Source: Sphingomonas flavalba (GTDB lineage: Bacteria > Pseudomonadota > Alphaproteobacteria > Sphingomonadales > Sphingomonadaceae). From it: a DNA stretch of 64,000 nt. Below, piece by piece: positions 2,326-51,960 of the stretch. The position numbers were made by a program, and so were the translations under genes. How positions within the stretch are numbered: the stretch's first letter is position 1; every line of letters begins with the position of its first letter. Under the pieces are notes generated by a model. That model worked only from the letters and a program-made list of their open reading frames with translations, did no database searches and was not told the DNA's origin. Where the stretch lies: assembly GCF_004796535.1 (NCBI RefSeq), contig NZ_SPHY01000010.1, forward strand, positions 1 to 64,000, written 5' to 3'.

Positions 2326-3633
2326 ATGTCCTTCTACACCTCGCTTTCGGGCCTGCAGGGCGCCCAGACCGAATTGTCGACCATCTCGCACAATCTGGCG
2401 AATGTCGGCACCAACGGCTTCAAGCGCAGCCGCGTCGAATTCGGCGACGTCATCGCCTCGTCGGTCACGCGCAGCCCGACGCAGATCGTCGGCTCCGGCA
2501 CCTTCGTCAAATCGATCACCCAGCAGTTCGGGCAGGGCGGGCTTCAGCAGTCGCAGTCGTCACTCGACATCGCGATCAGCGGCGAAGGATTCTTCGTGAT
2601 CAAGCCCAACGCCAATACCGCGCAGGTCGCCTTCACCCGCAACGGCGCCTTCTCGGTCTCGGCCGACCGCTATGTCGTCGACGCGCAGGGCTCGGCGCTT
2701 CAGGTCTATCCGGTCGACGGCAGCGGCACGGTCGTCGCCACCGGCATCGGCTCGACGGAAAGCCTGCGCCTGCCGCTGACCAGCGGCACCCCGCAGGCGA
2801 CGCAGGACGTGCAGATCTCGGTCAACCTGTCGGCCAACGGCAAGGTGCCGTCCGCCGATCCGGTCTATTCGGCGACCAATCCCTATCAGTTCGATCGCTT
2901 CGATCCGGATACCTACAATTATTCGGCGGCGACGGTGATCTACGATTCCGTCGGCAATCCGATGACGCTGACCAGCTATTATGTCCGCGAAACCACGCCG
3001 ACCTCGGCCGATCCGTCGAGCAACTGGACGGTCTACAACTTCGTCGGCGACAAGCAGTTGTCGTCCGATCCGGCGGACCCGGACGGCGGCGTGCCGGTCA
3101 CGCTCAGCTTCGACAATAACGGCGTGCTGACCAACCAGAGCGGTCCGGTCCAGTTCGCGACGATTACCCCGGCCGGCGCCGCGCCGCAGGACCTGACGAT
3201 CGATTTCTCGATCTCGACCACCCAGCGCGCCGCCGCCTATTCGATTACCGCGCAGAACCAGGACGGCGAACCGGTCGGCCAGCTGGAAGGCGTCACCGTC
3301 GATCCCAACGGCATCGTCCGCGCCAGCTTCTCCAACGGCCAGACCCAGGCGCTCGGCAAGATCGCCCTCGCCCAGTTCTCCAACCCGCAGGGCCTGCGCC
3401 AGCTCGGCAACAGCTACTGGTCGGCGACCGGCATCTCGGGCGAGGCGCGGCTCGGCGAACCCGGCCTCGGCGGCTTCGGCAATCTGATGTCGGGCGCGAT
3501 CGAGCGGTCGAATGTCGACATCACCGAGGAACTGGTCGGCCTGATCGCCGCCCAGCGCAATTTCCAGGCGAATGCGAAGGCGATCGATACCGCCAACACG
3601 CTCAGCCAGACGATCATCAACATCCGCGGATAA
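2326..3633 (+). CDS. flgE: Flagellar hook protein FlgE
   Basis: 435 aa, typical of FlgE. The N-terminal axial-protein motif NLANVGTNGFKRSR is at residues 23-36. There is a long variable central domain and a C-terminal motif EELVGLIAAQRNFQANAK. It forms the flexible hook polymer. An AAGGAG ribosome site precedes the ATG. Located between flgD and flgF, as in most flg operons. Confidence 0.96.
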   Translation: MSFYTSLSGLQGAQTELSTISHNLANVGTNGFKRSRVEFGDVIASSVTRSPTQIVGSGTFVKSITQQFGQGGLQQSQSSLDIAISGEGFFVIKPNANTAQVAFTRNGAFSVSADRYVVDAQGSALQVYPVDGSGTVVATGIGSTESLRLPLTSGTPQATQDVQISVNLSANGKVPSADPVYSATNPYQFDRFDPDTYNYSAATVIYDSVGNPMTLTSYYVRETTPTSADPSSNWTVYNFVGDKQLSSDPADPDGGVPVTLSFDNNGVLTNQSGPVQFATITPAGAAPQDLTIDFSISTTQRAAAYSITAQNQDGEPVGQLEGVTVDPNGIVRASFSNGQTQALGKIALAQFSNPQGLRQLGNSYWSATGISGEARLGEPGLGGFGNLMSGAIERSNVDITEELVGLIAAQRNFQANAKAIDTANTLSQTIINIRG

Positions 3634-3658
3634 CTGACGGAGCGGATGGAGCGGCACG

Positions 3659-4402
3659 ATGGATAAGCTGATCTACACGGCCTATTCGGGACTGCGCGGC
3701 CACATGGCCGCGCAGGCCGCGATCGCCAACAACATCGCCAACGGATCGACCACCGGCTTCAAGGCTGACAAGGTCGATTTCGAACGGCTGACGCTGACCG
3801 GCCCGACCTTCGAATCGCGCGCGCCGACCTCGGAAGAAGTCATCGATGCCGACCGGCAGGCCGGCGCCGTCACCCATACCGGCCGCGATCTCGACGTCGC
3901 GGTCAACGGCGACGCGTGGCTGGCCGTGCAGGCGGCGGACGGCACGGAAGGCTATACCCGGCGCGGCGACCTGACGATCGCGCCGTCGGGCGTGCTCCAG
4001 ACCGGGGACGGCTTTCCAGTCATCGGCCAGAGCGGGCCGATCACCATCCCGCCCGCCGCGAAGGTGACGATCGCCGGCGACGGCTCGATCCTGGTCGTGC
4101 CGCCCGGCGGCGACCTCGACAAGCCGCAGATCCTCGACCGGCTGAAGCTGGCCAGCCCGAAGGGCACGGAAACGCTGAAGGGGCTGGACAACCTGCTGCG
4201 CGTCAAGGGCGGCGGCGCGCTGCCGGCCGATCTCGACGCCTCGGTCACCGCACAGTCGCTGGAAGGATCGAACGTCAACATGATGGAATCGCTGGTCGCG
4301 ATGATCGAGAACCAGCGCAGCTACGAGATCCACGCGAAGCTGCTCTCCACCACCAAGGACATGGACGAAAGCGGCGCATCGCTGATGCGCATGCCGGGCT
4401 AA
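3659..4402 (+). CDS. flgF: Flagellar basal-body rod protein FlgF
   Basis: 247 aa. The N-terminal motif NNIANGSTTGFKAD is at residues 24-37. The C-terminus (SLVAMIENQRSYEIHAK) is the conserved rod-protein helix. A proximal rod subunit. The identity as FlgF rather than FlgG rests on its order (directly before flgG) and its more divergent sequence. Confidence 0.93.
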   Translation: MDKLIYTAYSGLRGHMAAQAAIANNIANGSTTGFKADKVDFERLTLTGPTFESRAPTSEEVIDADRQAGAVTHTGRDLDVAVNGDAWLAVQAADGTEGYTRRGDLTIAPSGVLQTGDGFPVIGQSGPITIPPAAKVTIAGDGSILVVPPGGDLDKPQILDRLKLASPKGTETLKGLDNLLRVKGGGALPADLDASVTAQSLEGSNVNMMESLVAMIENQRSYEIHAKLLSTTKDMDESGASLMRMPG

Positions 4403-4416
4403 GGAAGGATTGAACG

Positions 4417-5205
4417 ATGACCTCTGCCGCGATGCACATCGCCCGCACCGGGCTGGATGCCCAGAACGAGCGGATGCGCGTGATCTCGAACAACCTCGCC
4501 AACGTCAACACGACGGGGTTCAAGCGCGACCGCGCCAATTTCGAGACCCTCGCCTATCAGACGATCACCCAGAGCGGGGCGCCGTCCACGGCGGAAACCA
4601 AATACGCGACCGGGCTCAACCTCGGCACCGGCGTCCGGCTCGCCGGCACCTCGCGCATCGAAACCCAGGGCTCGCTGCAACAGACCGGCAACGCGCTCGA
4701 CATGGCGCTCGACGGCGACGGCTATTTCCAGGTGCAGCTGCCCAACAGCCAATTGGGCTACACCCGCGCCGGCAATTTCGGCCGCTCGCCGGAAGGGCTG
4801 CTGGTCACCGCCGAGGGCTATCAGGTGATGCCCGGCATCACCATCCCGGAAGGCGCGACGGCGATCGCGGTCGGCAATGACGGCACCGTCTCTGCGGTCG
4901 TCCCCGGCCAGGCCGAACCGGCCCAGCTCGGCCAGATTCAGGTCGCCAGCTTTCCCAACCCGGCCGGGCTGACGCCGACCGGCGACAACTACCTGCTCGA
5001 AACCGCCGGCAGCGGCCCCGCCAATATCGGCATCGCCGGGCAGGACGGCCGCGGCCGCATCCGCCAGAACATGCTGGAAGGCTCGAACGTCAACGTCGTC
5101 GAGGAACTCGTCGACATGATCGAGACCCAGCGCGCCTACGAGGTCAATTCGAAGATGATCTCCGCCACCGACCAGATGCTGCAATATGTCAACCAGACCC
5201 TTTAA
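4417..5205 (+). CDS. flgG: Flagellar distal rod protein FlgG
   Basis: 262 aa, the conserved FlgG length. NNLANVNTTGFKRDRA is at residues 25-40 and the C-terminal ELVDMIETQRAYEVNSK is near-invariant in FlgG. It builds the distal rod that passes through the P and L rings. An AAGGA ribosome site precedes the ATG. The 3' end overlaps flgH by 20 bases in another frame. Confidence 0.96.
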   Translation: MTSAAMHIARTGLDAQNERMRVISNNLANVNTTGFKRDRANFETLAYQTITQSGAPSTAETKYATGLNLGTGVRLAGTSRIETQGSLQQTGNALDMALDGDGYFQVQLPNSQLGYTRAGNFGRSPEGLLVTAEGYQVMPGITIPEGATAIAVGNDGTVSAVVPGQAEPAQLGQIQVASFPNPAGLTPTGDNYLLETAGSGPANIGIAGQDGRGRIRQNMLEGSNVNVVEELVDMIETQRAYEVNSKMISATDQMLQYVNQTL

Positions 5206-44396: not shown

Positions 44397-46565
44397 CTAG
44401 AAGTCGACCTTCGCCGACAGCCACAGCCGGCGCGGCTCCTGGTTGTTGATGTAGCGGTTGACGAAGGTCGGGTTGCCGTTGCTCGCCGTCGCCGGTTGGT
44501 AGTCGACGAAATTGCGGTTGAACAGGTTGTAGACCGTCGCGCTGATCGTCACTGCCTTGCCGATCTGGTACGCGCCGCCCAGGTGGAAAACGCTGTACGC
44601 CCGATAGTCGCCGTACAATGCCTTGGCGTTGGCGGATCCGCTGTCCGGCGTGCGATAGCGCCGGCTGCGATGCTCGCCGCGCAGCCACAGGCTGAACGCT
44701 TCGCTGGCCGCCCAGCGCAACTGGCCGTTCAGCATGTGCCTGGGCGTGTTCGACAGCGGCTCGCCCTTCGACGGCCCGCTTTTCTGCTCGCTGTCGGTAT
44801 AGGTGTAGTTGCCCGACAGGGTCACCACCGGCACCGGCTGCCAGCGGAAAGAGAATTCCACGCCTTCCGTCCGCGCCTTGTCGATGTTGACCGACTGCCC
44901 GAACGTCGCCGTCGTCGGGTAGAAGCCGACGTCGACGCAGCCCGTCTTGGCATAATTGCCGGCGCGGTAATCGGCTTCGCTCACCCCGAAGGCGCAGTTG
45001 TCGACAGGCTGGTCGCTCGACGAGATCTTGTCGTCGAAATCGTTGCGGAAGAAGGTCAGGTTGGCGCGGAAATTGTCGCGATTGTCGTAGTAGATCGCCA
45101 GTTCGGTCGCCACGCTGGTTTCCGGCGTCAGCGTCGGCGTACCGATCAGCGGCAGCCGCCCCTGGCTGCCGAAGCCGTTGATGCCGGGGGCAAGCTGCTC
45201 CAGCCGCGGCGCCTTGTAGCCGCTGCTGACCCCGCCCTTCAGCGTCCAGTTGTCGGTAGCGTTCCACACCAGATAGCCGCGCGGGCTGAAATGGCTGCCG
45301 AAGGTCGAATGGTCGTCGTAGCGGCCGCCGACGGTCAGCGCGAGTGTCTCTGCGATCCGCCATTCGTCCTCGGCGAACACCGCCCACTGCTCGAAGGTGA
45401 ACGGCGCGCTGGCGACGCCGTCGACCATCTTCGCGTCCCAGTACTGGCCGCCGATCGTGAAGGTGTGGTTGGCGATCCGCGACGACAATTTGGTGTCGAG
45501 GATGGTGCTGGTGCTCTCCAGCGTGCGCGGCAGTCCGCCCTTTATTGGCACCAGCGCCGGGATCAGCCGGCCCATCGTCTCGGTCTCGTTGCGCGACAGC
45601 GTCGTCTCGAGCGCGCCGAACGGCAGGCGCCAGTTGTGCGCCAGCACATATTGCTGCCGCTTGAACTCCAGCGCGTCGGCATAGCCGCCGGCAACGGTGT
45701 TCGTCCCCATCTGGCCGCTGGAGTTGTCGTACCACTGGTCGCCGAACTCGACGTCCAGCCACAGGTCGTGGTCGACATGCGGCGTCAGGCTCAGCCGCCC
45801 GCCGGCCGACCATATCCTGTTCTTGGTCGGGCTCGGCCCGAAGCCGGTGACCGGCACTGGCGTGCCCGCCAGGTTCAGATACTGGAGCTTCGACTGCTCG
45901 CGCTCGGAATAGCTACCGCGCAGCGCGACACCCAGCAGGTCGCGGACAAGCGGCCCGTTCAGGTACAGGTTGCCGCCGTAGATCGCGCCGAAATCGCCGT
46001 CGCCCTGCAACGTGTAATGCCCGGTCGCGGAACCGCCCCAGCGGTCGCCGACCTTGCGGGTGATGATGTTGACCACCCCGCCCATCGCGTCGGAGCCGTA
46101 GAGCGTCGCCACCGGGCCGCGCACCACCTCCACCCGCTCGATCGCCGACACCGGGGGCAGGAAGCTCGTCGCCGTTTCGCCGAAGCCGTTCGGGGTCACG
46201 CTGCCGGCGGTGTTCTGCCGCCGGCCGTCGATCAGGATCAGCGTCTGGTCCGATCCCATACCGCGGATGTTGATCGTCGATCCGCCAGACTTGCCGACGG
46301 ATTCGCCGACATCGACGCCCTCGATATTGGCCATGATCTCGGTGATCGACACCGCGCGGATCGTCTCGATCTCCTCGCGCGCGATCACGCTGATCGATGC
46401 CGGCGCCTGCTCCACCTTCTGCTCGAAACCGGCGGCGGTGACGACAATCTCAGGCGCGGCGGCATCGGCTTCGGCGGCCGATGCGGGCGCCACGCACATC
46501 GCCGCGACGACAAGGCTGCCGCCACCCAGCATGGCTCGGCGAAGCGCTATGGACATTTCCGACAT
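44397..46565 (-). CDS. FepA-like TonB-dependent siderophore receptor
   Basis: 722 aa. Signal peptide about 1-30 (ends ASA). TonB-box region APEIVVTAAGFEQ. The plug sequence VDVGESVGKSGGSTINIRGM and DQTLILIDGRRQN closely follows the FepA/catecholate-receptor pattern. Next is VRGPVATLYGSDAMGGVVNI. The barrel ends WLSAKVDF. Probably takes up a ferric catecholate-type siderophore. A Fur-like site lies upstream. Divergent from the two-component system. Confidence 0.9.
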   Translation of the reverse strand: MSEMSIALRRAMLGGGSLVVAAMCVAPASAAEADAAAPEIVVTAAGFEQKVEQAPASISVIAREEIETIRAVSITEIMANIEGVDVGESVGKSGGSTINIRGMGSDQTLILIDGRRQNTAGSVTPNGFGETATSFLPPVSAIERVEVVRGPVATLYGSDAMGGVVNIITRKVGDRWGGSATGHYTLQGDGDFGAIYGGNLYLNGPLVRDLLGVALRGSYSEREQSKLQYLNLAGTPVPVTGFGPSPTKNRIWSAGGRLSLTPHVDHDLWLDVEFGDQWYDNSSGQMGTNTVAGGYADALEFKRQQYVLAHNWRLPFGALETTLSRNETETMGRLIPALVPIKGGLPRTLESTSTILDTKLSSRIANHTFTIGGQYWDAKMVDGVASAPFTFEQWAVFAEDEWRIAETLALTVGGRYDDHSTFGSHFSPRGYLVWNATDNWTLKGGVSSGYKAPRLEQLAPGINGFGSQGRLPLIGTPTLTPETSVATELAIYYDNRDNFRANLTFFRNDFDDKISSSDQPVDNCAFGVSEADYRAGNYAKTGCVDVGFYPTTATFGQSVNIDKARTEGVEFSFRWQPVPVVTLSGNYTYTDSEQKSGPSKGEPLSNTPRHMLNGQLRWAASEAFSLWLRGEHRSRRYRTPDSGSANAKALYGDYRAYSVFHLGGAYQIGKAVTISATVYNLFNRNFVDYQPATASNGNPTFVNRYINNQEPRRLWLSAKVDF

Positions 46566-46581
46566 TGAACCCCCCAGATAT

Positions 46582-46596
46582 TGAGACTAATTAGCA
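46582..46596. promoter_or_regulatory. Fur-box-like site upstream of the FepA-like receptor
   Basis: TGAGACTAATTAGCA agrees with the 7-1-7 Fur motif TGATAATNATTATCA at 11 of 14 defined positions. It lies 16 bases upstream of the receptor start. Iron repression is expected for such a receptor. The arms are imperfect. Confidence 0.5.
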
Positions 46597-46713
46597 ACAG
46601 CAGGTCGACGGGGCGCCTAGCCGATCGCTGTCCTGGAAGTCGACCGGGAACGGCACATCACGCGGGGGAGCAACACTTTGTCACAATGGATCGGGACGGA
46701 CCGGGGAAGAGGC

Positions 46714-47469
46714 ATGGCCCCGTCACCGGCGCTGCCGCCGGGGTGGCAGCAACCGGACCATATCGTCATCGTCGACGACGATCCGGCGATACGGACGCTG
46801 CTCTCCCGGATCCTGCGGGAAGTCGGCTACGACGCGAGCGGCGCGGAAAGCGCCGCAGAGCTTGAACGGATCATGGCCGAGCGCGCGGTCTCTCTGGTCC
46901 TGCTCGACATCATGATGCCGGGCATGGACGGGCTGTCGCTGTGTCGCGCAATCCGTGCGCGCAGCAAGGTGCCGGTGATCATGATCAGCGCGCGTGGCGG
47001 CGAAGCGGACCGGGTGGCCGGGCTGGATGTCGGCGCCGACGATTACATCGCCAAGCCGTTCGGGCGCCCCGAAGTGCTGGCCCGCATCCGCGCGGTATTG
47101 CGGCGGAGCGGAGACCTGCACCTGCCGCTCGACGTGCCGGCGCCGGAGTACTTCGCCTTCGGCGGCTGGCGCTACCGTCCCCGCCGGCGCGAATTGCTGG
47201 CGTCGTCGGGCGCCGAGGTCGAACTGACCGGGGCGGAGCACGAACTGCTGCTCACCCTGCTGCGCCATCCGCAGCGGATGATCGGCCGTGAGCGGCTGCT
47301 CGAACTGGCGCGCAGCCGCCTCAGCCATTCCTCGGACCGCAGCGTCGACGTGCTGATCAGCCGGCTGCGGCGAAAAATGGGCGACGGCCGGAGAGGCGGC
47401 CGCCGGCCGATGATCCGCACCATCCGCGGCGTCGGCTATATGATGGCGGTGGACGTGGAGGCCGGCTGA
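46714..47469 (+). CDS. OmpR-type response regulator
   Basis: 251 aa from the ATG at 46714, preceded by GGGGAAGAGGC. The receiver domain has the acidic pocket DDD (21-23), phosphoacceptor Asp65 in LVLLDIMMPGMDG, and Lys in YIAKPFGRPE. A C-terminal winged-helix DNA-binding domain (about 150-250) has ELTGAEHELLLTLLRHPQRM and DVLISRLRRKMGD. The stop overlaps the kinase start. Divergent from the FepA-like receptor, its probable target. Confidence 0.92.
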   Translation: MAPSPALPPGWQQPDHIVIVDDDPAIRTLLSRILREVGYDASGAESAAELERIMAERAVSLVLLDIMMPGMDGLSLCRAIRARSKVPVIMISARGGEADRVAGLDVGADDYIAKPFGRPEVLARIRAVLRRSGDLHLPLDVPAPEYFAFGGWRYRPRRRELLASSGAEVELTGAEHELLLTLLRHPQRMIGRERLLELARSRLSHSSDRSVDVLISRLRRKMGDGRRGGRRPMIRTIRGVGYMMAVDVEAG

Positions 47470-48806
47470 TGCCCCGCCTGTCGCTTCCCGCCGGCATGGC
47501 CGGCCGCATCGCGCTGATCCTGATCGCGGCGGTGACGGTCGAATTCATCGGCAATTCGCTGATCAACCTGTGGCAGGAAAAGGAGCTGCTTTCCGCCGAG
47601 CGCACCCGCCGCATCGCCGGGCAGATCGTCGTCGCCGAACGTGTGGTGGCGGATGTCCGGCCGGACCGGCGGTCGCGCGTCGCCGCCGACCTGTCGCTCG
47701 ACGGGCTTGTGCTGAACTGGGTGCCGGCGACCGTCATCGCCGATTCGAGCGCGGCCCACGCCCGGTTGCAACAGGTGAAGCACCGGCTGGTCGGCATGGC
47801 CCCCGCGCTCGCCGGGCGCGACATCCGGCTGGTGCTGATCGCCTCCGCCAAGAGCGGCAAGCGCGACCTGATCGGCGCGCTGCGCCTGGCCGACGGCAGC
47901 TTCGTCACCTTCCGCGTCACCCCGTTCCTCAACGCCCCGCCCGCCTTCGCGCTGGTCCTTGCCCTGCATCTGCTGCTGATCGCGGCGGTGCTCGGCATGG
48001 GGCTGCTGCTGGTCCGCGCGCTGGTCCGGCCGCTGCGCGCGCTGGCCGCCCTCGCCGACGCCACCGGGCAGGGCAGCGCGCCGGCAATGGTCATCGAAGG
48101 CCCGCGCGAGGTGCGCCGCGTCGCCACCGCCTTTGCCGCCATGCAGGCCCGGCTGCTGAGCATCATGGCGGAACATACCCAGGCGCTGGTCGCGGTGTCG
48201 CATGATCTGCGCACGCCGATCCAGCGGCTGCGGCTGCGCGCGGCGCTGCTGGCGGACAAGGATGCGCGCGGGGCGATCGACCGCGACCTTGCCGAGCTTG
48301 AAAAATTCGTCGGCTCGATCGTCAGCTTCATGCGCGGCGACGGGGCGGAGGCGGCGCGGCTGGTCGATGTCGCGGCGATTGCGATGACCGCCGTCGACGA
48401 CGCCGCCGATGCCGGCGCGGCGATCACCTATCAGGGGCCGGACGCGCTGGCCGCGACATTGCGCCCGCTGGCGCTGAAACGCGCGCTCGCCAATATCGTC
48501 GACAATGCCGTCGCCCATGCCGCCACCATCCGGGTCAGGCTGACGGCCGACGCGGCGGCGATCCTGCTGACCGTCGAGGATGACGGCCCCGGCATCCCGG
48601 CGGACCGGCGGGCGGAGGTGTTGCTGCCGTTCCGGCGGCTTGAACCGGCACGGCACGAGGACAGCGGCGGCGCCGGCCTTGGCCTGCCGATCGCCAGCCG
48701 GGCCGTCGCCACGCTGGCGGGCACGCTGACGCTGGGGGACAGCGCGCTCGGCGGCCTGTCGGTCACCCTGCGCCTGCCGCGCCACGGCGCGGCGCCGGCG
48801 GAATAG
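47469..48806 (+). CDS. Two-component sensor histidine kinase
   Basis: 445 aa. First membrane helix about 11-35, periplasmic sensor about 36-158, second helix about 160-183, then HAMP. H-box VSHDLRTPIQRLRLRA with phosphorylated His245. The ATPase domain has NIVDNAVAHA (N box), VEDDGPGIP and GAGLGLPIA. The sensor region has no named domain I can recognise. ATG overlaps the regulator stop. It is flanked by metal-acquisition genes on both sides. Confidence 0.92.
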   Translation: MPRLSLPAGMAGRIALILIAAVTVEFIGNSLINLWQEKELLSAERTRRIAGQIVVAERVVADVRPDRRSRVAADLSLDGLVLNWVPATVIADSSAAHARLQQVKHRLVGMAPALAGRDIRLVLIASAKSGKRDLIGALRLADGSFVTFRVTPFLNAPPAFALVLALHLLLIAAVLGMGLLLVRALVRPLRALAALADATGQGSAPAMVIEGPREVRRVATAFAAMQARLLSIMAEHTQALVAVSHDLRTPIQRLRLRAALLADKDARGAIDRDLAELEKFVGSIVSFMRGDGAEAARLVDVAAIAMTAVDDAADAGAAITYQGPDALAATLRPLALKRALANIVDNAVAHAATIRVRLTADAAAILLTVEDDGPGIPADRRAEVLLPFRRLEPARHEDSGGAGLGLPIASRAVATLAGTLTLGDSALGGLSVTLRLPRHGAAPAE

Positions 48807-48870: not shown

Positions 48871-49821
48871 CTATTCCAGCATCGCGCGGAACCCGGACGA
48901 CATCGCCTCTCCGGCGTCGGACTGGATCAGCGCGGCAAGCCCTTCCGCCTCGGCCAGGGCCAGGCCCGCTTCCGGCCCGAGCACGGTCAGCGCCGTCGCC
49001 CAGGCGTCGGCCAGCATGCATTGCGGGTGCAGCACGGTCACCGAATGCACGCCGTTGGCCAGCGGCCGGCCGGTGCGCGGGTCGATGCTGTGGGCGTAAC
49101 GCTGCCCGCCATGGGCAAACCAGCGGCGATAGTCGCCCGATGTCGCCACCGCCATGCCGTGCAGGGCAACGCGGCTTGGGGCGAAACCGGCACCGGGCGG
49201 CAATTCCAGGTCGACCCACCAGGGCTGGCCGTCCGGCTTCACCCCGGCGCCGCGCAGTTCGCCGCCAACCTCGACCAGGAAATGCGCGATGCCGCTGGCG
49301 AGCAGATGCTCGGCCACGCAGTCGACGCCATAGCCCTTGGCGATGCCTGAAAAATCCAGCTCGGCGGCGCGGGTCCGGCGGGCGCGCAGACAGGGCGCGT
49401 CCAGCTCGATCGCGTCATGACCGGCCTCGGCCAGCGCCGCGGCGATCGCGACATCGGTAGGGGGCGCGCCGCTACCCGGTTTCGGGCCGAAACCCCATTG
49501 GTCGACCAGCGCGCCGATCGCCGGGTCGAACGCGCCGCCGCTCAGCGCCGCCACATCCAGCGCCGCCCGCAGCACGGTCACGAAGGCCGGCGGCAGCGCC
49601 TGCCAAGCGCCGACCGGGCTGCGGTTGAACCGGCTGATGTCGGACCCCGGCTCCCACGGACTCATCTCGGCGACGACGGCGTCCAATATCCGCTGGATCG
49701 CCGCCGCCAGCCCCGGCGGCGGGGACACCGCCCGCACCGACCAGCTTGTCCCCATCGTCCGCCCGGCGAGCGCCGCAACGCTCCCCGCCGCGTCGCGCCG
49801 GGCGAAGGCGGCGGGGGACAA
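48871..49821 (-). CDS. apbE: ApbE-family FAD:protein FMN transferase
   Basis: 316 aa from a TTG at 49821. Family motifs: RTMGTSWSVR (21-30), MSPWEPGSDISRFN (53-66), LDFSGIAKGYGVD, and AVATSGDYRRWF with YAHSIDPRTGRPL, plus a Mg-binding LADAWATAL. It attaches FMN from FAD to a Thr or Ser of a target protein. The upstream operon member DUF2271 has the target motif DGVTGAT. No signal peptide or lipobox is visible, unlike most periplasmic ApbE proteins. The true start may be a non-standard codon upstream. Confidence 0.88.
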   Translation of the reverse strand: MSPAAFARRDAAGSVAALAGRTMGTSWSVRAVSPPPGLAAAIQRILDAVVAEMSPWEPGSDISRFNRSPVGAWQALPPAFVTVLRAALDVAALSGGAFDPAIGALVDQWGFGPKPGSGAPPTDVAIAAALAEAGHDAIELDAPCLRARRTRAAELDFSGIAKGYGVDCVAEHLLASGIAHFLVEVGGELRGAGVKPDGQPWWVDLELPPGAGFAPSRVALHGMAVATSGDYRRWFAHGGQRYAHSIDPRTGRPLANGVHSVTVLHPQCMLADAWATALTVLGPEAGLALAEAEGLAALIQSDAGEAMSSGFRAMLE

Positions 49822-49856
49822 CGCCGGCGGGATCAGGATGCGGGGTGGCTGCCGGT

Positions 49857-50693
49857 TCAGGGCGCCAGCACCTCAAGCGTCGCGACATAGCTGGCGACGC
49901 GGCCGGGCGCGGCGGCGGCGTCCGGGCCCATGCCGCGACCGGTCGTCACGTTCAGCCAGTACATGCCCGCCGTCGGCCAGGTGATCGTCACCTTGCCGTC
50001 CGCCCCGGTCTTCAGGTCGATCTGGTTCAACTGGTCGCGATAGCGGATGCCGCCGGGGATGACGGTGACCGGCAGGTCCGCCGCGGGCTTGCCGTCGAGC
50101 AGGAACTGGAAGGTCGCCGGTTCGCCGGCGATCAGGTCGTTCGGGTGGGTCACCGGCACCAGTTCCAGCCCATTGTTGGTCGGCGCCAGCGCCGTCGTCG
50201 TCGGCTCGCCGACGGTCACGAATATCTCGTTGCGGCTGCTGGTCGTCGTCGTCTTGACGTTGGTCGCACCGGCCGGAACCGCCTGCGCCAGCGTTGCGGC
50301 GGTGGTGCCGCGCGGCAACCGCTCGGTCTTGCCGTTCAGGTCGTAGCTGCCCATCATCCCGTCCGCCACCGACGCGATCTTGTAGGTGCCCTTCTGGGTC
50401 AGGTGGACGTCGAAGGTGCTGCGGTAGCGCGCGGTCAGCGCATTCTCGATCTTCGCCTCGCTGCCGTCGGGCGCCAGCGCCTTGACGTTGTTCAACCGCA
50501 TCGGCTGATGCTCGAAATAGAACAGGTCGTTGGACACCGCGGCGTCGACATTGACCCAGACGTCATCGCCGGACAGGACGGTGGCCGACGGCAGCATCCA
50601 CTGCCGGTGGGCCGCCGCCGGGCTGGCCAATGTCGCGGTAAACATGGCGGACAGGGCCAGGGTGGCCAGGCTGCGTGCGATACGGATGTTCAT
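49857..50693 (-). CDS. Periplasmic DUF4198-family protein
   Basis: 278 aa. Signal peptide about 1-28 (ends AAA), then HRQWMLPSATVLSGDDVWVN, the typical DUF4198 start in which a His follows the cleavage site. The C-terminal part shows DLPVTVIPGGIRYRDQLNQI and ITWPTAGMYWLNVTTG, a beta-sandwich pattern. The family includes proteins linked to nickel, cobalt or iron uptake loci. A metal-binding or docking role is likely but unproved. Third gene of the PepSY operon. Confidence 0.85.
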   Translation of the reverse strand: MNIRIARSLATLALSAMFTATLASPAAAHRQWMLPSATVLSGDDVWVNVDAAVSNDLFYFEHQPMRLNNVKALAPDGSEAKIENALTARYRSTFDVHLTQKGTYKIASVADGMMGSYDLNGKTERLPRGTTAATLAQAVPAGATNVKTTTTSSRNEIFVTVGEPTTTALAPTNNGLELVPVTHPNDLIAGEPATFQFLLDGKPAADLPVTVIPGGIRYRDQLNQIDLKTGADGKVTITWPTAGMYWLNVTTGRGMGPDAAAAPGRVASYVATLEVLAP

Positions 50694-50708: not shown

Positions 50709-51239
50709 TTAGCGCCGAAAGGCGATGGTGACTGCACCCAGTTCCGACATGCCGGCGGCACGCGCGGTCTGGCCCGGCTTTGGCGGCCAGGAAAACGGCA
50801 GGCGAAGCAGTTCACGGCCGCCGACCTCGCGGGACGCCTCGACGACCAGCGTGTAATCGCCGGCCGCCAATGTGCCGAGGGCGCCCTTGCCGGCGGTGAA
50901 ACTGATCTTGTGGGTCCCCGGCGCGCGGGTCGCGCCGGTCACGCCGTCGGCCGGGAACTTCATGCTGCGGCCGGACACGCGCCACCATTGCCGCACGTCG
51001 CGCAGCCATTTGGTGCCCTCGTTGTCCTTCATGTCGAAATCGTACCAGACGGCGATCGTCTTCGCCGGCGCCCCGGCCTTCTCCAGCCAGAAGGCGACGT
51101 AAGGCCGGTGGTATTCGGCGACCTTCAGCTGCGGGATGGCCACGGTCACGTCCATCGTCTGCGCCGTCGCCGGCGCCGCGAACAGGACCGGCATGCCGAT
51201 CGCCGATCCGGCCAGGATTACACGGTGGGAAAGCTGCAT
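50709..51239 (-). CDS. DUF2271-family periplasmic protein with an FMN-attachment motif
   Basis: 176 aa. Signal peptide about 1-26 (ends ATA). The mature part follows the DUF2271 pattern: YVAFWLEKAGAPAKTIAVWY (47-66) and KWLRDVRQWWRVSG (77-90). Residues 98-104 read DGVTGAT, which fits the D-x-[VIL]-[ST]-G-A-T flavinylation motif modified by ApbE enzymes. Thr104 would carry the FMN. Between PepSY and DUF4198 genes with short gaps; apbE is last in the operon. Predicted periplasmic electron carrier. Confidence 0.85.
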   Translation of the reverse strand: MQLSHRVILAGSAIGMPVLFAAPATAQTMDVTVAIPQLKVAEYHRPYVAFWLEKAGAPAKTIAVWYDFDMKDNEGTKWLRDVRQWWRVSGRSMKFPADGVTGATRAPGTHKISFTAGKGALGTLAAGDYTLVVEASREVGGRELLRLPFSWPPKPGQTARAAGMSELGAVTIAFRR

Positions 51240-51941: not shown

Positions 51942-51960
51942 GAGATTGATTTTCATTTTC
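51942..51960 (-). promoter_or_regulatory. Fur box of the PepSY/DUF2271/DUF4198/apbE operon
   Basis: Read on the minus strand, GAAAATGAAAATCAATCTC matches the 19-bp Fur consensus GATAATGATAATCATTATC at 15 of 19 positions. It lies 37-55 bases upstream of the PepSY GTG. This is the best Fur-site match I saw in the window and predicts induction when iron is scarce. Confidence 0.7.

Follow-up and report, generated by a model that had tools for sequence, protein, structure and literature searches.

A conserved flavinylation-type acceptor site in a DUF2271 protein of Sphingomonas flavalba, encoded in one operon with an ApbE that has no signal-like segment

The stretch of Sphingomonas flavalba DNA analysed here (64,000 nucleotides; hereafter the window) carries on its minus strand a close-set series of genes for a PepSY_TM_like_2 membrane protein, a DUF2271 protein, a DUF4198 protein and an ApbE (Table 1). 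A preliminary description had read D-G-V-T-G-A-T at codons 98-104 of the DUF2271 frame as a flavinylation motif, with FMN on the last threonine, and had noted that the operon also contains apbE. The ApbE gene does lie on the same strand, with only the DUF4198 gene between the two. Is this threonine a flavin acceptor, which enzyme would load it and on which side of the membrane, and what would the flavoprotein serve?

Table 1. Features of the window discussed in the text (E, expectation value of the domain or structure match; aa, amino acids).
Feature	Position	Strand	Evidence or remark
TonB-dependent receptor, catecholate-siderophore-receptor-like	44397..46565	-	PF00593 E 1.3e-54; putative link with the operon
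Second Fur-like site, between TonB receptor and response regulator	46577..46595		14/19; next best separate site
Response regulator (46678-47469) and histidine kinase (47469-48806)	46678..48806	+	Convergent with the operon; putative link
ApbE, FAD:protein FMN transferase	48871..49860	-	PF02424 E 1.8e-84; PDB 5mgy E 1.7e-60
CTGA: candidate ApbE start codon (CTG, non-canonical), overlapping the TGA that ends DUF4198	49857..49860	-	Same overlap in 13 relatives
DUF4198 protein, 278 aa	49857..50693	-	PF10670 E 4.9e-59; signal-like N-terminus by eye
DUF2271 protein, predicted ApbE substrate, 176 aa	50709..51239	-	PF10029 E 4.3e-47; sole DUF2271 match of the genome
Thr104 codon, predicted FMN acceptor	50928..50930	-	Motif position
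Flavinylation motif D98-G-V-T-G-A-T104	50928..50948	-	Codons 98-104 of the DUF2271 frame
DUF2271 Sec-type signal peptide, MQLSHR-VILAGSAIGMPVLFAAP-ATA/Q	51162..51239	-	Sequence, by eye; without twin arginine
PepSY_TM_like_2 membrane protein, predicted electron supplier, 217 aa	51252..51905	-	PF16357 E 8.6e-79
Fur-like box upstream of the operon	51942..51960		15/19 minus, 14/19 plus; E. coli-type consensus

The DUF2271 frame scored 159.7 bits against PF10029 (curated cut-off 27.3) over the full domain, and the Pfam search returned no domain besides DUF2271, FMN_bind (PF04205) included. The minus-strand letters at 50928-50948, GACGGCGTGACCGGCGCGACC, translate to D-G-V-T-G-A-T, and the motif is thus where it had been read. 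Residues 101-104 (TGAT) have the [S/T]GA[S/T]-like form of the acceptor in DUF2271 proteins flavinylated by ApbE. The pattern D[GA][VILM][ST][GSA][AP][ST] occurred once across the six frames of the whole window. When the mature protein was shuffled, D[GA][VIL][ST]GA[ST] arose in 7 of 200,000 shuffles and the short [ST]GA[ST] in 5,532 of 200,000 (about 3%); the short form is therefore weak evidence alone, and conservation is the real test. A chance origin of DGVTGAT was rejected on its single occurrence in the six window frames and its conservation across classes. Searching the whole genome with a looser DNA pattern gave two further matches (one in the reversed control), in an ABC-type permease frame and in a 69-aa open frame; by eye both look like chance, and they were rejected as substrates.

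The mature DUF2271 domain was modelled with AlphaFold2 (31 sequences; mean pLDDT 83.4, pTM 0.82) as mostly beta strands, with pLDDT falling to block means of 63-71 over residues 41-70. Thr104, residue 77 of the model, was placed in a loop between strands 73-75 and 81-87. Foldseek found no match to this model in the PDB at E 0.001 or better, and a DUF2271 sequence search of the PDB gave weak matches only, the best being a biofilm-associated surface protein (E 1.6e-4).

Conservation of the acceptor was analysed in 42 related loci from genome contigs, aligned with the window to give 43 rows, and in 299 evenly drawn Pseudomonadota genomes, including that of the window. In the draw, 43 genomes held 44 DUF2271 domains above the Pfam cut-off, five sub-cut-off matches being excluded. 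The acceptor threonine was invariant in the aligned rows (43/43), as were Gly99 and an Arg or Lys after the motif (both 43/43); Asp98 was found in 42/43 rows, with A in place of D in L014. Every domain of the draw had a hydroxyl residue at the acceptor position (44/44; Thr in 34, Ser in 10). The preliminary description had treated a loss of the motif among DUF2271 proteins near apbE as fatal to its reading; no such loss appeared in the alignment, the acceptor being Ser or Thr in 28/28 domains with an ApbE in the retrieved neighbourhood and in 16/16 domains without one. Flavinylated proteins such as NqrC and RnfG carry D-x-[VIL]-[ST]-G-A-T, and this form had been carried over to DUF2271. Here the acceptor hydroxyl held but the exact form did not: strict [ST]GA[ST] was present in 28/43 rows of the relatives set and 22/44 domains of the draw, and Pro replaced the motif Ala in 14/43 rows and 11/44 domains, which we count against the explanation preferred below. 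The loci L021, L025, L026 and other Lysobacteraceae have GPT in place of GAT, though an ApbE is usually adjacent. A divergent DUF2271 subgroup (L082-L089 and L091) has a G-A-S acceptor followed by Val or Ile.

The window ApbE was translated from the CTG at 49860, the first usual start codon being the TTG at 49821. Its sequence matches FMN transferases of solved structure, for instance 5mgy, and it retains the residues that are identical in at least 34/38 aligned rows, H244, D272 and T276 among them. The genome, rated 100% complete, has one ApbE and one DUF2271, and the genome search gave no match to FMN_bind and none to DUF3570. Another known type of substrate for this ApbE was rejected, as FMN_bind and DUF3570 are absent from the genome; another ApbE acting on DUF2271 was likewise rejected, as there is none besides that of the operon. 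Across the draw, an ApbE was present in 43/43 genomes with a cut-off-passing DUF2271 and in 226/299 genomes overall (hypergeometric probability 2e-6, kinship ignored). Within the window's own family, both genes were found in 7/13 genomes of the draw and neither in 6/13. By tblastn with the window ApbE, an ApbE was found beside DUF2271 in 37/42 relatives and not in L010, L014, L015, L027 and L036. Five genomes were checked for an ApbE match: those of L010, L014, L012 and L036 have one, and that of L015, whose contig ends shortly after DUF4198, has none. In L012 (genome G303, C36:16939-17776), the ApbE matches fall in two different frames, which points to a frameshift or to a fault in the assembly. 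The invariant acceptor, the sole ApbE of the genome and the absence of the two other substrate types that were searched for together support the earlier naming of both site and enzyme, with Thr104 as the putative flavinylation site and the operon ApbE as the predicted enzyme.

The other genes of the operon and its surroundings suggest what the flavoprotein would do. The PepSY protein also matches PF03929 (E 8.4e-12), and the operon has the make-up of a PepSY-like flavinylation system. Its histidines at positions 30, 53, 156, 190 and 217 are conserved in 39-43 of the 43 rows, as expected for a haem protein (the haem role is given in PMC11334425). No other Fur-like site in the 64 kb scores as high as the box at 51942-51960. 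Among the relatives, a Fur-like site of at least 12/19 stood in the 250 bases before PepSY in 21/42 loci, with 16/19 in five Massilia loci, and no site above 10/19 was found before PepSY in 18/42, several Lysobacter and Sphingobium among them. Elsewhere in the genome, a 694-aa frame has a match to the FeoB C-terminal domain. The TonB receptor reached 504 bits against the NCBIfam CfrA model, under its cut-off of 1200.

We consider it highly probable that Thr104 carries FMN placed there by the operon ApbE, and that the flavoprotein moves electrons from PepSY to ferric iron as part of an iron-controlled uptake system. ApbE would transfer FMN from FAD to Thr104 in a phosphoester bond; once exported, the DUF2271 flavoprotein would be reduced by PepSY, a membrane protein of the haem type, and would hand the electrons on in the periplasm to ferric iron or to chelates of iron, and the whole, with the TonB receptor and FeoB, would act as an iron-controlled system of ferric reduction and uptake. 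The motif might instead be a structural relic, with DUF2271 binding or reducing iron without a covalent flavin. The strict [ST]GA[ST] in only half of the draw domains could be taken that way, as could the DUF2271 domains that lie away from apbE, 16/44 having no ApbE in the retrieved neighbourhood (a count that also goes against the flavinylation reading). A relic would hardly keep its acceptor hydroxyl in 44/44 domains and 43/43 rows, however, and none of the 73 draw genomes without ApbE held a cut-off-passing DUF2271 (one, G032, had a match below the cut-off), which makes the relic very improbable. The operon might also serve another metal, or a siderophore or chelate step, in which case ferric iron would not be what the flavinylated DUF2271 reduces. 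Nickel/cobalt transporter components with DUF4198 are on record (PMC7190382); against this, Fur-like sites stand at both promoters, and homologous loci are iron-regulated in Caulobacter (PMC11870441) and Alteromonas (PMC7190382). We regard this alternative as unlikely, and flavin-dependent ferric reduction remains our preferred reading.

The place of flavinylation is a separate matter. FAD is made in the cytosol. The window ApbE has no signal-like segment anywhere in its open frame by a simple hydropathy measure, and thus not the export signal of an extracytosolic ApbE; the frame is closed upstream at 49873-49875, 17 codons above the TTG. Taking a best 12-residue mean hydropathy of 2.4 as the threshold of signal strength, we read 54 loci (the window included) with both genes and the MGT motif. 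In 48/54, the ApbE next to DUF2271 had no hydrophobic stretch of signal strength (L024, at 2.38, being a borderline case), and in the divergent DUF2271 group the ApbE had no signal in the 7/7 loci read, out of nine. Some of these relatives, such as L034, L041 and L097, have short signal-less N-termini behind ordinary ATG starts. The control set consisted of 20 ApbEs without an adjacent DUF2271, chosen as top-scoring rows and unmatched in lineage; of the 18 that were readable (L129 and L135 were not), 14/18 exceeded 2.4, 18/18 reached at least 2.18 and 15/18 had a lipobox. On a tree of 78 ApbEs with an arbitrary root, 3 changes account for the signal state, compared with a mean of 21.3 after shuffling. 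This tree left out L012, L079, L081, L106, L129 and L135, which gave no motif match, and the short L028; the residue composition is odd in 15 of its control rows. Six Lysobacterales ApbEs that adjoin DUF2271 have clear signals and group with the controls in a 25-row fork (support 99/97), which also includes the signal-less L101.

The start of the sphingomonad ApbE is unusual as well. The CTGA overlap of the ApbE frame with the DUF4198 stop was found in the window and in L003-L009, L013, L112-L115 and L118. In all 14 loci, there is no ATG, GTG or TTG from about 15 bases before the overlap to a conserved R[IV]x[IV][PA] stretch. The TTG at 49821 is the window's only downstream start candidate; where its position could be matched by eye, in 11 sphingomonad relatives, the codon is CTC, CTA, CTT or CTG. 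In relatives with an ATG start (L011, L018, L023 and L024), ApbE begins just before the R[IV]x[IV][PA] stretch; L116, like L011, has an ATG. Judged from these codons, a CTG start is likely, and the arrangement fits termination-reinitiation at that codon. The 14 loci were picked by their CTGA overlap, so the frame that they share cannot count as independent support; the end of DUF4198 and the high G+C content may account for the C ahead of TGA. L019, another Sphingomonadaceae locus, has ATAG at the overlap and no usual start either, and L078 and L098, in which CTGA is followed at some distance by ordinary start codons, do not figure in the count. A programmed frameshift joining DUF4198 to ApbE was considered less likely, as inspection of the last five codons by eye showed no slippery site. 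We found no paper on a CTG start codon in Sphingomonas in our literature search, and a toeprinted candidate CUG start of Caulobacter dnaA was unused in vivo (PMC8443254), which calls for caution with the CTG start of ApbE.

Because the window ApbE has no export signal, we lean slightly towards attachment of FMN in the cytosol, before Sec export of DUF2271. That loading there is possible follows from a published co-expression of Amantichitinum ursilacus DUF2271 and ApbE in E. coli, in which signal-less forms of both were used (PMC8238504). The wider reading, in which a large ApbE lineage dedicated to DUF2271 works in the cytosol and the sphingomonad enzyme is made by termination-reinitiation at a conserved CTG, is tentative, and we put it somewhat short of an even chance. 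Nearly comparable, and likewise somewhat short of even, is the textbook route: FMN would be attached to Thr104 in the periplasm, which the ApbE would reach through a signal that is cryptic or by some route that went unrecognised. The review PMC12052999 places most ApbEs in the periplasm, and all 18 readable controls away from DUF2271 have lipoprotein- or Sec-like signals. Signals are also found close to DUF2271 itself, in the six Lysobacterales ApbEs and in L081, where a single ORF (3216-4763) encodes ApbE plus DUF2271 behind an N-terminal signal-like stretch. Furthermore, in seven genomes without an ApbE near DUF2271 (G066, G162, G186, G252, G267, G276 and G288), the ApbE read elsewhere has a signal, three of the seven holding further, unread ApbEs. 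On account of these signals, DUF2271 can probably be modified in the periplasm too. A cryptic signal in the window ApbE fits poorly with the closed frame, in which nothing signal-like lies between the upstream stop and the TTG, and with the signal-less N-termini that relatives have behind ordinary ATG codons; the absence of a signal also follows the ApbE tree. Export of DUF2271 by the Tat route was rejected as an explanation of cytosolic loading, since RR was seen in 3 of the 50 N-termini that could be read, and two of these three adjoin an ApbE that has a signal. The hydrophobicity of the DUF2271 signal did not differ significantly with the presence of an ApbE signal (Mann-Whitney p 0.08), some of the start picks behind this comparison, the window's included, being wrong.

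With the site assigned, sphingomonad DUF2271 proteins could be annotated as flavoproteins for which both the attachment point and the enzyme are known, and the operon would be linked with ferric reduction. Should the signal-less ApbE act in the cytosol, proteins with covalent flavin would be completed before export, which would change the view of how periplasmic flavoproteins mature; no periplasmic supply of FAD, and hence no FAD export, would be needed for loading DUF2271.

Flavinylation of DUF2271 is already known in kind. The DUF2271 protein of A. ursilacus is flavinylated by its cognate ApbE, and a Thr-to-Ala change abolishes the modification (Méheust et al. 2021, PMC8238504); the test by T-to-A mutant and UV gel was thus published for a homologue in 2021. 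The same paper gives the [S/T]GA[S/T] acceptor site, reports the motif as conserved among 282 flavinylation-associated DUF2271 proteins, and describes PepSY/DUF2271/DUF4198/ApbE clusters, for which it proposes a role in iron reduction. The window operon resembles this PepSY-like system in its four domains, in the DUF2271 site, in a putative link with iron and in the TonB receptor, which some of the published clusters also have. It differs in its ApbE: the enzyme tested there was cloned 'signal peptide-truncated' and so had a signal, whereas that of the window has none. For the published clusters, a signal in a single one of the four target genes was enough, and those data may thus include ApbEs without a signal. 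A 2024 paper models the DUF2271 domain (PMC11334425). Neither a signal-less ApbE next to DUF2271 nor its CTGA overlap without a usual start codon was found in our literature search (the supplementary signal predictions of PMC8238504 lay outside that search).

The putative iron link has its nearest counterparts in Caulobacter and Alteromonas. In Caulobacter crescentus, the locus CCNA_03155-03159 has the same PepSY, DUF2271 and DUF4198 genes (likened by gene content); Fur targets this locus, and cells with insertions in it are less fit in EDTA (PMC11870441). A flavin-dependent reductase is named in that paper, in the main text of which no mention of ApbE was found. In Alteromonas, DUF2271 and DUF4198 genes rise under iron limitation (PMC7190382). 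The FMN_bind proteins NqrC and RnfG share the same kind of acceptor motif with the window protein but belong to a different family, which is absent from this genome. In the parts of the review PMC12052999 drawn on here, signal-less ApbEs appear only for the soluble fumarate reductase of Klebsiella and for trypanosomatid enzymes. The Klebsiella ApbE is, as proposed for that of the window, cytoplasmic and without a signal peptide; its substrate, however, is soluble and stays inside the cell, whereas the DUF2271 substrate in the window has an export signal.
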